Shown here: in pieces, positions 25,701 to 31,700 of the stretch
How positions within the stretch are numbered: position 1 is the first letter of the stretch
Layout of the letters: each line of letters opens with the position of its first letter
Assembly: GCA_037951105.1 (NCBI GenBank)
Contig: JBAMJV010001840.1
Location: 1-64,000, forward strand
From: Echinarachnius parma
Taxonomy: Eukaryota > Echinodermata > Echinoidea > Clypeasteroida > Echinarachniidae
DNA: 64,000 bases
Reading direction: 5' to 3'
Program-made: the position numbers and the translations under genes
The notes under the pieces: generated by a model
The model's database searches: none
What the model was told of the DNA's origin: nothing
The model's input: the letters and a program-made list of their open reading frames with translations, nothing else

Positions 25701-28700
25701 GTTTGTATGTTTTGTTTCAGCTCAAGTATACAGACACACTCTTCACCGAACAAGAGGTAAGACTATCCAGTGAAATGATTTTGATATAAGTCAGTGTCAC
25801 CAGTAATACGATATCCCTTTGATCCTTGCAAGGGTTTTAATATTAATTTTGTGTAAGCACTCTGCAACTCCTCATCATCTCATTACCATAGATGATGAGG
25901 TTCTAATCCAGTGCCATAGCAACCAGAGATGCTCTCTGCTCCCTGATTGATCCATCCTCTGAGACCACTCAGTGTCTCCCTGGATCTACAATCGGGGGGA
26001 CATCTTTATACATCATCATTTGTCTTTATGTAATTTTGTAAAACAAATGAAAACTTTTTTAGTATAATTAGGATCTGACCTTAACTCAAGACCTCTGAGT
26101 TTATCATTTATAAAATGTAAACAAAGAAACGGACTAGACAAAAGAAAAAAGTGGCAACCATGAAAAAATGGTTTATATAATTTTTAAAAAGGCTTTGTTA
26201 TAGCTGTTATTTTCCATAGCCAACCTAAATGCAAGTCTGGCTTTAGGCCTCCAGAATGATTCAAATAACTTGCCCAACATGGCCACAGTTGTAAAAATCT
26301 AATGTCAAGCTTTTAATTTTTTTTATTTTGTATTAATGTTGCCAGAGAGGAGTGAGCATCAAGGCTCAGCCTGTCACTCTCGTCTTGCCAGACTGCAAGG
26401 GCAAACACTTCCTCATCAACGTCATGGACACACCAGGTAATGATATCATTTATTTATTTATTTTTTAATTTTTTAATAACAGGCATCATTATAATAGATT
26501 AATAATAAAAATAGGTTAGATGTATAGCGCCTATTATGATACAATATAATCTCAGAGCTTCGTCTGACACTAGTATTACCCGGTCACATGATACAATACC
26601 AGTCCACTCACATTGAGTGCACAATCTCTGCTCCCTGAGGACAATTTCTTTCATTTTCTTATTTATTGATGTTAATTTATTGCATTTTATTCATATGTAG
26701 GTCATGTGAATCTCTCTGATGACGCAATTTTGTTTTTCCACATCTCTAACAGTGTGGTGATCTTTGTTGCAGCTTGTTCTGTAATGGTGAATTGACCAAA
26801 CATTTCGTCCGGGAGCAACTGACTGTCTCGTAATTTTCCTTTGCAAATGATATAAATACAATTTTCATTGATTTGTTAAACAAACATTATTTCATGTAGG
26901 TCATGTGAATTTCTCTGATGAGGCGACGGCATCGTTTCACATCTCCGACGGTGTGGTGATCTTTGTTGATGCTGCAGAGGGTATAATGTTGAACACGGAG
27001 CGTCTTTATCAAGCATGCTATGCAGGAACGTCTTGCCGTTACAATCTGCATCACAACACTCATTTTCATACGGAAGAAGTATTAAATTATATCTGAAATG
27101 ATTCCTTGTAGGTCATGTGAATTTCTCTGATGAGGCGACAGCGTCGTTTCGCATCTCTGACGGTGTGGTGATCTTTGTTGACGCGGCGGAGGGTGTCATG
27201 CTGAACACGGAGCGGCTGATCAAACACGCCGTGCAGGAACGTCTTGCCGTCACTATCTGCATCAACAAGATCGACAGACTGGTGCTAGAGCTGAAGCTTC
27301 CGCCCACAGATGCCTACTACAAGCTCAGACACATTGTAGATGAGATCAACGGCTTGCTCAGGTCAGTGTTGAACAACGGGGATCTAAACAAATGATAATT
27401 TGTTGCCAATTTGAGGAATACATAGTTGTATGATTGTTGGGCTGTGGGCTCAGAGGGAAAATATTGACAGACTGGTGCTAGAGCTGAAGCTTCTGCCCAC
27501 GGATGCCTACTACAAGCTAAGACACATTGTGGATGAGATCAACGGCTTGCTCAGGGCAGTGTGCGATGCATTGACACATTTACTATTATCTGTTCTTGGA
27601 TGGATTTTATTTTAGAGCAAAATCAAATGCTATATTGTTCTTAAAATTAACAAGTCATACTTTTCATCGCTCTATGTTCAGAATAATCTGAATTTGTAAA
27701 GGTATTGTATTTGAAAAAAACAAATAGGGGGATTTATACATTTGAACATTTATTGCCAATTTTATGATTATCCATTGTTCTGGTGATAGTGGTGTTACGA
27801 TCTACACAGGTACGTAGGGTGACATCAAAATGCTTCCGCACCTTTTATATACATGTATTTAAACTCTCTTTGTCGCAACATTACGAACTCGGATGATACG
27901 GATCAGAAGATTGTTTCGCCGTTGCTAGGCAACGTTTGCTTTGCCAGCTCGGCAGTACAGTGTGTGCTTCACACTAGCATCCTTTGCCAAGATCTACACA
28001 GATCTGTACTGTGACATCAACGTTTAACATCCATTACTGTCTCACATTATGCATAATATCTTGAAATTCTCTTTGTCGCAACAGTACGTACTCAGATGAT
28101 GCAGATCAGAAGATTGTTTCACCGTTGCTTGGGAACAAATGCTTTGCCAGCTCGACAGTACAGTGTGTGCTTCACGCTAGCATCCTTTGCCAAGATCTAC
28201 ACAGATCTGTACTGTGACATCAACGTTTAACATCCATTACTGTAATATAATATCTTGAAATTCTCTTTGTCTTAACAGTACGTACTCTGATGATGCGGAT
28301 CAGAAGATTGTTTCACCGTTGCTAGGCAACGTTTGCTTCGCCAGCTCCCAGTACAGTGTGTGCTTCACGCTAGCATCCTTTGCCAAGATCTACACAGACA
28401 CGTACGGTCTCATCGACTACCAGCAGTTTGCCAAGAGGTTGTGGGGCGACATCTACTTCAGTCAGAAGACGTAAGTACATCAGTTTTGATCTATTGGATG
28501 ATCTATTTACAGTTCTTCACCCATTTAGAGGTGAAATATTACACGATCTACACAGAAATGTATGTATGTTTAGAGGTTCCTGTTTGGGGTGACATAGATC
28601 TATTTTTAGCCAGATTACATAAGATCATGGATAACAGCCCTACCCTCCTCCCAAGGAAGAAAAAAAACCACTTTTATAAATAGTAAGATCTTCACAGATA

Positions 28701-31700
28701 CGTACGGTGACATTGACTATCAGCAGTTTGCAAAGAGGCTGTGGGGCGACATCTACTTCAGCCAAAAGATGTCAGTATTAGGCCATAGATCCATTTGCCA
28801 ATATTTTATTGTGGGTTCAAGCAAAATTGTATAGAAATGGGATGAGATCTCCGAGAAGCAAATGTGTCATATGTTTAAACCTTATCCAATTTTGTTAAAA
28901 TATTTTCTGCTTCTGGCTTATGTTCTTCCTTTGTCTTTGCGTATTTAAAAGTGATCTTATTTGTTATTCTGTTCATACACGTATGTCTTGTGATTTCTGT
29001 GATCCAAGTAACAGCCTAGATCTGTTGACTTGGTATTTTTTTTTGTTCTTGTCTACGTGTTTGAATGATAAAAAAGTACACTGATTACCAGCTTCCTGAA
29101 GCATTGAGTTTAAAATGTCTTCCTTTTTTTTTCTCAGGCGAAAATTCAGCCGGAAGCCCCCAGTGAGCACAGCCCAGAGAAGCTTTGTGGAGTTCATCCT
29201 GGAGCCCATGTACAAGCTCTTTGCTCAGGTATGTTATCACTAACATTGTACAGATTTTTTGTTCCTATTAAAGGGTACCACCACCCAAAAATAATATTCT
29301 TATTATAGAAAGGTACCATCTTTAGTATTCCATTCCTTCAACAAGTTCACAAAAATATGTTTTCAGAAAAAAAAAATATAATTGGAAAACGCATCACCAT
29401 TCTCAACCATGCATTCATGCGGTCTGAATTGCGTAGACTATATGCATGCAGAGCCAGAGTGCACTGTGCAGAGCGAATGAATCATCCGGGAATCTATTGA
29501 CGTACGCGTGAAAGCATTGGCGCACTCGCAAATGCTTGGCCCGTATGGAACCAGGAAATAGCAGTGGTTCCGTAAGTGGTGGAAATTAATTGCTTTGTTT
29601 ATGAATTACACAACCCTTTGCAAAATGTTGGGTATCTATTTGATATCACAAAACGGTACCAAAACATATAATAATGTGTTGTCCTTTGCCTGGTGGTCCC
29701 CTTTAAGTATTGACCCAGTTGATAGCTGGAAGTTTAAAATTAGGGTGGTATGTGCAAAAATGCATGGGCTCAGGGCGATTTAGCCCCTAAAATGCAAAAA
29801 AAAAAGAGCCCCCCAGAATTTAAAAAGAGGTCCCATAAATGTCAACAGAGTTCAATGACAAACAAATTTTAATGTGCTTTTGTCATATAGGTAGCTCTAC
29901 CAAAAATAGATAATACAATTTGTTCCTTGTGTGAAATCCTAATTCCCCCACTAACCCCATTGCGTAATCCCACTCCATATTTCTGATCACCAAATTTTCC
30001 ATTGTTCAGCACTGACCCTAGAATTCATGGTTGATAATTATTATGTTTGAAATCAAGATTGTTCTATTTACAGTTGGTAGGAGTTGTTCAAAAAAATACA
30101 CAGGTGCTGAGGGTGAATTCGCCCCCGAAAATGCCAAAAAGAGCCCCTGAAATTTGAATAGAGTGCAATGCAAATCAAATTTTGGATTGTTATTTTCATG
30201 CAGGCAAGCTTGAAAAGTAGCCCCCGAAAAAACTTCTTAGACCGACATCAAATATATCAGATATTCTATGTTCAGATAGATACAGATTTTGCGAGATGTT
30301 GAAACCACTACTGCATGTCTGCCTTGTAAACTTAGTAGACTATTATCCAACTTATCTGATCTTGATATCTATGTTGTCTTTCGAGGTGGGGGTAGGAGAT
30401 GTTTATCACTCTACTTCCCTCATGTGTTTAACTTGATAGACTGATACCCCTTTCACTTGTGGTTTCTGTGGTATGGTCTACAAGTACTACGTTAATACGT
30501 GTGGTTTGCGGTTGCACCATGTAAGAGGAGAGGATTGGTGAGTCCTGAAAAGGACTGTTTGGTATTCTTTCTAGGATAGTCCTAAAAAGGACTGGGTAGT
30601 CCTAGAAAGGACTGTTGGTAGTCCTAGAAAGGACTGTTGTTATAGTCCTGAAAAGGACTGTTGGTATTCTTTCAAGGATAGTCCTAAAAAGAACTGGGTA
30701 GTCCTAGAAAGGACTGTTGGTAGTCCTAGAAAGGACTGTTGTTATAGTCCTGAAAAGGACTGTTGGTATTCTTTCAAGGATAGTCCTAAAAAGAACTGTT
30801 AGTAGTCCTGGAAAGGACTGTTGGTATTCTTTCTTGAGCTTTTTGTTCTAATAATAAGAGCTACAGCGCCGGTATAGTTATTGTAAGGAGAGGGTGGATG
30901 GTAGGACGTAGTACTACGTTATCTTTTATCACATTGCTGTTGTCTTCACACATTTGTGATATGTACAGGTAGTAGGAGACGTTGATTCCACTCTGCCCGG
31001 TGTGCTGGATGAGCTGGGTGTCCACCTGACCAAGGAGGAGATGAAACTCAACATCCGCCCGCTCCTCAAACTCATCTGCAGAAAGTTCTTTGGAGACTTT
31101 ACAGGTACGGCCAAACCCGACTATCTATAGAGTGGTCAAGTGTGTGACGTCATCATTTTTTAGAATTTCCAAATTTTATCTTTATTTTCCGAAAGAGCAT
31201 CAAAAAGTAATTGAAAATCAATCAAATATGTTAAGTATGGCCTGAGATATGCCCATCTGAATGCATTTATTTTAATAGGAAATCACTGTTATTTTGCTCT
31301 GGTTTATAACATTACGAACCAGAGCAAAATAATGATTTCCTATTCGAATCTATTTATTCAGATGGTCATATCTCAGCCAACACATATTCTATTGTTTTTC
31401 AACCTTTGGGCATTGATTGTTATGTTTTTTAGCTCATCCGGCCCGAAGGGCCCGATGAGCTTATGCCATGCCGTGGCGTCCGTCGTCCGTCCGTCCGTCC
31501 GTCCGTCCTTCCGTCCTTCCGTCCGTCCGTCCACAGTTTTCAAAATGCTTCTTCTTCGTTATTTTTCAACCGATTTTGATTCTGATTGTTTCATAAGATA
31601 GGGCTAGGAGGGGGATTTAAAACTTCTACACAGAATCGTGAAATTCATTATATATGCTAATTTATGCAAATTTATTCGAAATCACAAAAAATGCTTCTTC

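Follow-up and report, generated by a model that had tools for sequence, protein, structure and literature searches.

How do pieces of an exon that have only one splice site come to change in sequence as if they still encoded protein? This question is raised by the gene EFTUD2 of Echinarachnius parma, and in particular by the surroundings of its exons 8 and 9. We analysed positions 1–64,000 of contig JBAMJV010001840.1, forward strand, from assembly GCA_037951105.1 (1.2 Gb in 14,790 contigs), and refer to this whole stretch as the window. The analysis covers the DNA sequence of assembled contigs. The reading that we favour, and consider rather probable, is that the exon pieces form live tandem arrays that vary in copy number, in which one whole exon is kept by selection and the half-copies still exchange sequence with it.

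Half-copies around exons 8 and 9 of EFTUD2

The gene model places EFTUD2 on the + strand at 19657–43648, with 24 exons and 975 residues in the window. The product was identified from the exon 8 peptide, which matches the U5 116 kDa protein (EFTUD2) in PDB (E 9e-46). Both exon 8 and exon 9 are accompanied by partial copies, the 5′ part of the exon upstream of the intact one and the 3′ part downstream. The exons and the features around them are as follows.

27112–27361, + strand: exon 8, intact (gene model; PDB match; same protein in a second contig, described below)
26701–26769, + strand: exon 8 half-copy E8c1, exon positions 1–69, 81% identity, acceptor kept with a score of 6.0 against 7.5 for the true one
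26900–27053, + strand: exon 8 half-copy E8c2, exon positions 1–153, 88% identity, one base inserted, acceptor kept with a score of 6.6
27460–27554, + strand: exon 8 half-copy E8c4, exon positions 156–250, 94% identity, donor GT changed to GG, missing in the second contig
27378–27420, + strand: intron 8 segment that recurs at 27728–27770 (77%), 350 bases on
28279–28470, + strand: exon 9, intact (gene model)
27799–27828, + strand: exon 9 remnant c0, 30 bases, exon-internal, exon positions 109–136
27882–28021, + strand: exon 9 half-copy E9c1, exon positions 1–139, acceptor AG changed to AT
28085–28224, + strand: exon 9 half-copy c2, exon positions 1–139, acceptor kept with a score of 4.4 against 6.2 for the true one
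28542–28562, + strand: short, strongly decayed exon 9 copy, exon positions 106–126
28685–28769, + strand: exon 9 3′ half-copy, exon positions 107–191, 88% identity

The exon 8 copies are spaced at 199 and 212 bases upstream and at 193 bases downstream. For exon 9 the spacings are 192, 203 and 193 bases, followed by 158 and 142 (300 for the well-preserved 3′ copy), and the two upstream copies of positions 1–139 are 90% and 88% identical to the exon. Tandem Repeats Finder detects the exon 9 array at 27861–28398 with a period of 203, 2.7 copies and 89% matches. As the intron 8 segment recurs 350 bases on, the 3′ unit of exon 8 appears to have been ∼350 bases originally, one copy having later lost ∼157; the 193-base spacing is thus probably not a native unit.

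These results recover the ordered partial copies described in the initial annotation. Its view that they are genomic tandem duplications also holds: acceptor- or donor-side intron sequence accompanies the copies, which rules out a retrocopy origin. No second whole exon 8 or 9, in frame and with both splice sites, was found, in agreement with the earlier statement that a single copy of each keeps both sites. The copies are partial and do not qualify as mutually exclusive or duplicated functional exons; they are arranged head to tail at near-constant spacing, as in a tandem, minisatellite-like array.

At the codon 28409–28411 (exon 9 position 131) the intact exon reads CTC (Leu) in both contigs, and the copies read GAC (Asp), or CAC (His) in one. 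The human residue is presumably Asp, and it seems that at this codon the working exon, not the copies, has changed.

The assembly holds one other match to the locus, on a contig that we call C1280 (98% identity over exon 8) and that is probably the other haplotype. It is colinear with the window over the gene. Both have 24 exons and encode an identical protein (0 of 975 residues changed), and 31 of the 32 differences in 2,928 coding bases (1.1%) are at third positions. Up to window position 27372 identity is 99.0%; beyond it the match breaks into pieces, mostly at 84–97%. The drop, at C1280 position 91528, falls exactly where exon 8 ends, after 9.5 kb at 99.0%, as if a recently shared tract had stopped at the array.

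The arrays differ between the two contigs. E8c4 is absent from C1280, where exon 8 joins directly the sequence that follows E8c4 in the window. C1280 carries one extra exon 9 unit, with matches at 91869, 92071 and 92274 before the intact exon at 92468. If the two contigs are haplotypes, copy number would thus differ between haplotypes at two sites. In C1280 the exon 9 3′ copy is interrupted by an in-frame stop and, at the donor, by a 7-base gap. The three copies upstream of exon 9 in this contig (c1–c3) have a common stop at one codon, which none of the window copies has, a sign of homogenisation within the array.

Coding-like change in half-copies of three genes

Similar arrays were seen in a sample of 20 hand-picked other contigs (197 kb). 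They were spotted by eye in two of six batches of sample translations, and their number is a lower bound. One sample contig (L019) carries two exons of coatomer alpha (COPA; PDB match, E 5e-31). Exon A is followed by three copies of its positions 40–136 and exon B by five copies of about positions 130–219, all of them 3′ halves. On the minus strand of another (L016), an exon with a LEDGF-type match (PF11467, E 3e-6) is preceded by three copies of its positions 1–112. The layout is that of EFTUD2, with 5′ halves upstream and 3′ halves downstream. Long poly-C tracts lie between the half-copies of COPA exon A (L019:4041–4290 and 4640–4710), and their length varies by unit.

A piece unable to serve as an exon would be expected to change without constraint. 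We compared the differences between copies and exons with a simulation of a neutral copy beside a constrained exon, in which transition and CpG bias were taken from the haplotype differences. In eight copies of the window, 36 of 90 differences are nonsynonymous, where 54.3 ± 4.1 were simulated for copies neutral since birth. At non-CpG sites the same copies have 24 of 54, with 35.9 ± 3.1 simulated, and setting the CpG factor to 20 had little effect on the deficit. This test is blind to the side, exon or copy, on which the changes fell.

In the multi-unit arrays, a change that some copies carry and the exon lacks is attributable to the copies. The 44 changes of this kind at non-CpG sites fall on codon positions 1, 2 and 3 as 12, 5 and 27 (146, 144 and 137 sites), with P 6e-5, a value that is optimistic as the units are partly dependent and the changes were polarised without an outgroup. 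The excess at third positions is carried by COPA A (7/10), COPA B (8/10) and LEDGF (5/8), together 20/28. A further count gave 63 synonymous and 38 nonsynonymous with 73.2 nonsynonymous expected, but it includes exon 8 positions covered by one copy only; without exon 8 the numbers are 46 and 28. Pairs of sites that are incompatible between units were found in the exon 9 array (15/36) and in COPA B (2/3). They suggest recombination among units, though not specifically with the whole exon.

A comparison of older with more recent differences was also made, including the copies at exons 12, 15 and 24 described below. The synonymous to nonsynonymous ratios of old differences are 13:3 for E8c2, 6:2 for the exon 9 3′ copy, 4:2 for exon 12, 7:2 for exon 15 and 7:5 for exon 24; changes from haplotype to haplotype in the five copies are 3 synonymous and 9 nonsynonymous. 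The resulting contrast of 37:14 to 3:9 (Fisher P 0.005) has an old class that also includes changes of the working exon, and it omits E8c1 (4:9 old, 0:0 recent) and two exon 9 rows (3:6 and 6:8 old, 5:5 and 4:2 recent), all of which would weaken it. Given the omitted rows and the mixed old class, we do not rely on this contrast. A blind scan for codon phase likewise provided no evidence: 5 of 75 clusters reached P < 0.1 uncorrected, no more than expected by chance, although the COPA and LEDGF arrays make up three of them.

Proposed passage through the working exon and rival explanations

The favoured explanation, live arrays in exchange with a whole exon, would work as follows. The copies form tandem arrays, mostly of short units (about 60–235 bases), of a type frequent throughout the genome; a unit that crosses an exon edge leaves a single complete exon with half-copies at its sides, 5′ halves upstream and 3′ halves downstream. 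As a half-copy has one splice site only, it would not enter the mRNA as an exon of its own, and the single whole exon would be maintained by purifying selection. The arrays appear to be live, with units gained and lost between haplotypes. Where alleles with different unit numbers coexist, the half-copy of one allele could come to lie in register with the working half of another, and contraction of an array could put a half-copy into the working exon. Recombination would thereby carry sequence to the working slot and away from it, and selection on the whole exon would leak onto functionless copies. The contigs show tandem duplication together with flanking intron, one whole exon preserved, unlike copy numbers in two contigs, an unchanged protein and a recurrence of the layout in COPA and the LEDGF-like gene; the step that we infer is the exchange between half-copy and whole exon. 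A wider proposal, which we make tentatively, is that across many genes unspliceable half-exons come under purifying amino-acid selection because expansion, contraction and conversion of arrays pass them through the working slot.

Several points speak against this explanation. The contigs contain no tract that proves direct exchange between a half-copy and a whole exon. E8c1 (4 synonymous, 9 nonsynonymous) and E9c1 (6 and 8) are compatible with plain neutrality, and taken alone the arrays of exon 9 (6/13) and exon 8 (1/3) have no third-position excess; the optimistic P value for that excess also belongs here. Among the three arrays in which site pairs could be compared, COPA A had no incompatible ones (0/15). 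At synonymous sites several copies have diverged far more than the haplotypes have from each other (E8c2 has 15 synonymous differences in 50 codons), and this exceeds what simple exchange between alleles predicts.

The plainest rival is that these are dead tandem duplications, neutral from birth, and that the coding-like pattern is an artefact of mutation, arising from CpG, composition or alignment. The two neutral-looking copies just named fit it, as do the mostly nonsynonymous haplotype changes in five copies and the lack of preferential targeting of exons (see below). The nonsynonymous deficit survives both the CpG factor of 20 and the restriction to non-CpG sites, however, and the third-position excess at non-CpG sites is found in other genes, so that we consider this rival unlikely. 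Another possibility is that the copies derive from complete duplicate exons that were in use, for example as mutually exclusive ones, and were later cut down and died. This would account for the mostly synonymous old differences of E8c2 and of the exon 9 3′, exon 12, exon 15 and exon 24 copies, and for two-sided remnants that are roughly complementary (1–153 and 156–250 in exon 8, 1–139 and 107–191 in exon 9, 1–27 and 21–96 in exon 24). Yet no whole-exon copy was found, and the units of COPA B and of the LEDGF-like gene start or stop at nearly one exon point, which implies that truncation preceded amplification; the changes that came later are still biased to third positions. We regard former whole exons as quite improbable.

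The remaining two rivals are the least credible, to about the same degree. If the half-copies had a present function, such as tuning the splicing of EFTUD2 as decoys, this would explain why good splice sites are kept: the exon 15 copy has an acceptor of 9.8 and the exon 12 copy a donor of 9.6, like the true one, and the E8c1 and E8c2 acceptors are not far below that of exon 8 (6.0 and 6.6 against 7.5). But a decoy site needs no amino-acid constraint, the E9c1 acceptor and the E8c4 donor are lost, and the haplotypes differ, one having no E8c4 and one a stop and a 7-base gap in the exon 9 3′ copy. Such a function is therefore very improbable. An assembly artefact, in which alleles or reads were joined in tandem, might be suspected in an assembly of 14,790 contigs that includes a near-duplicate of the locus. 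Against it, the arrays are present in two contigs, and the copies are 6–19% different from the exon, with frameshifts and stops, when the two coding sequences differ by 1.1%. We thus hold an artefact to be most unlikely, and the possibility of an assembly error that the initial annotation had raised is answered to this extent, on the evidence of contigs.

If the pattern holds, coding-like evolution is no proof of use, as dead half-exons would mimic used sequence, with consequences for the annotation of exons and for tests based on the ratio of nonsynonymous to synonymous change (dN/dS). With its pairs of haplotypes, such a genome would allow indirect selection through recombination to be measured at many sites. 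Should the exchange step prove wrong, the locus is still a clear example of an essential gene that tolerates continual duplication at its exon edges.

Duplications at other exons, across the genome and in known systems

A search of the flanks of all 24 exons (100 shuffles each) found copies also at exons 12, 15, 22 and 24.

33633–33697, + strand: exon 12 half-copy, exon positions 64–128, donor GTATGT kept
35508–35569, + strand: exon 15 half-copy, exon positions 1–62, acceptor kept
40903–40931, + strand: exon 22 fragment, 25/29 identical, exon-internal, no splice site seen
42981–43015, + strand: exon 24 fragment, exon positions 1–27, acceptor AG changed to AA
44047–44132, + strand: exon 24 copy in the 3′ flank, exon positions 21–96 plus 3′ sequence

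A match upstream of exon 2 (P 0 of 100 shuffles) was dismissed as a simple GAT repeat, and weak matches at exons 1, 11, 13 and 20 (P 0.01–0.04) were left out of the count. The end of the last exon, with the stop codon (43628–43825), repeats in the 3′ flank with a period of 98, and the copy at 44047–44132 lies 474 bases on. An uninterrupted (ATC)79 microsatellite in intron 12 (33721–33958) adjoins the exon 12 half-copy. This half-copy is 395 bases from its source, with 73 bases aligned; the other arrays abut. The junctions are too old to be read for hallmarks of synthesis-dependent strand annealing.

We also considered insertion of a new exon within an old one. Upstream and downstream halves largely complement each other at exons 8, 9 and 24, but no such counterpart exists at exons 12 and 15, and two independent duplications account for the complementary halves equally well. 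With random placement, the chance that all of 11 events straddle a single exon edge is 0.04; as this figure depends on two long units and includes exon 22, where the fragment has no edge, that all such duplications are one-edge events is suggestive only.

The initial annotation had singled out exons 8 and 9 as a cluster and had, as a speculation, linked the unit length to the nucleosome repeat. Neither idea was borne out. Local duplications touch 5 of the 24 exons, against a mean of 5.8 under circular shifts (P 0.78), and thus no preference for exons was found. Local duplications were called with blastn at offsets of 50–1500 and at least 55 aligned bases, in the same way for window, sample and controls. 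The window has 46 matches in 19 clusters and the 197-kb sample 46 clusters, or 15 per 64 kb; five 64-kb first-order Markov sequences gave no matches. When offsets up to 3000 were allowed and two stretches were added (217 kb), the sample had 55 clusters, of which 42 matched nothing else in sample or window. Including those of the window, 48 of 56 unique loci have units of 50–250 bases. Units of 60–235 bp do not differ from a uniform distribution (Kolmogorov–Smirnov P 0.88), with no peak at nucleosome size; those that touch EFTUD2 exons range from 98 to 474 bases, and one 193-base spacing appears to derive from ∼350. Implanted duplications were recovered in 24–25 of 25 cases at 200–1200 bases, even at 30% divergence, which rules out a detection bias against long units, and in 10–18 of 25 at 60–100 bases, so that small units are under-counted. 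Neither the rate of duplication nor the unit size at exons 8 and 9 is special. The earlier interpretation was right about the nature of the copies. It had missed that copy number differs between haplotypes, that such duplication is genome-wide and that the copies change in a coding-like manner.

The nearest known processes are tandem duplications from break repair and repair-mediated local duplications. The former are a common class of mutation, mostly under 100 bp (PMC8355091), and like the arrays here consist of head-to-tail copies of short segments; the units here reach about 235 and are amplified further, with breakpoints too decayed to type. The latter arise by synthesis-dependent strand annealing, average 162 bp and include some partial exons (PMC2671141). 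They too are short local copies, but that study excludes copies less than 50 bp from their source, whereas the young ones here abut and form arrays. Small rearrangements linked to FEN1 have parts with median sizes of 148–160 bp, but are inverted triplications (PMC13334657).

Intron gain by tandem duplication of exon sequence (PMC2891723) also copies exonic sequence and splice sites within conserved genes; here no intron position is new, and reading frame and protein are unchanged. In tandem duplicated or mutually exclusive exons the copies likewise stand beside the parent, but the search here found no other complete exon flanked by both splice sites. In the RCCX copy-number variant a working copy, CYP21A2, and a dead one, CYP21A1P, exchange sequence by conversion (PMC3843699). 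That system and the one here are arrays variable in copy number, of whole genes there and half exons here, where exchange with the working copy would be the corresponding step. No account of half-exon arrays was found in the literature that we searched, and the statement is limited to that search.

Two further duplications in the window lie outside EFTUD2. A 299-base unit at 13848–14448 is duplicated in tandem with 99–100% identity, a very young event. A 151-base tandem repeat of 6.8 copies occupies 56570–57597, and its unit is also present elsewhere in the sampled genome.

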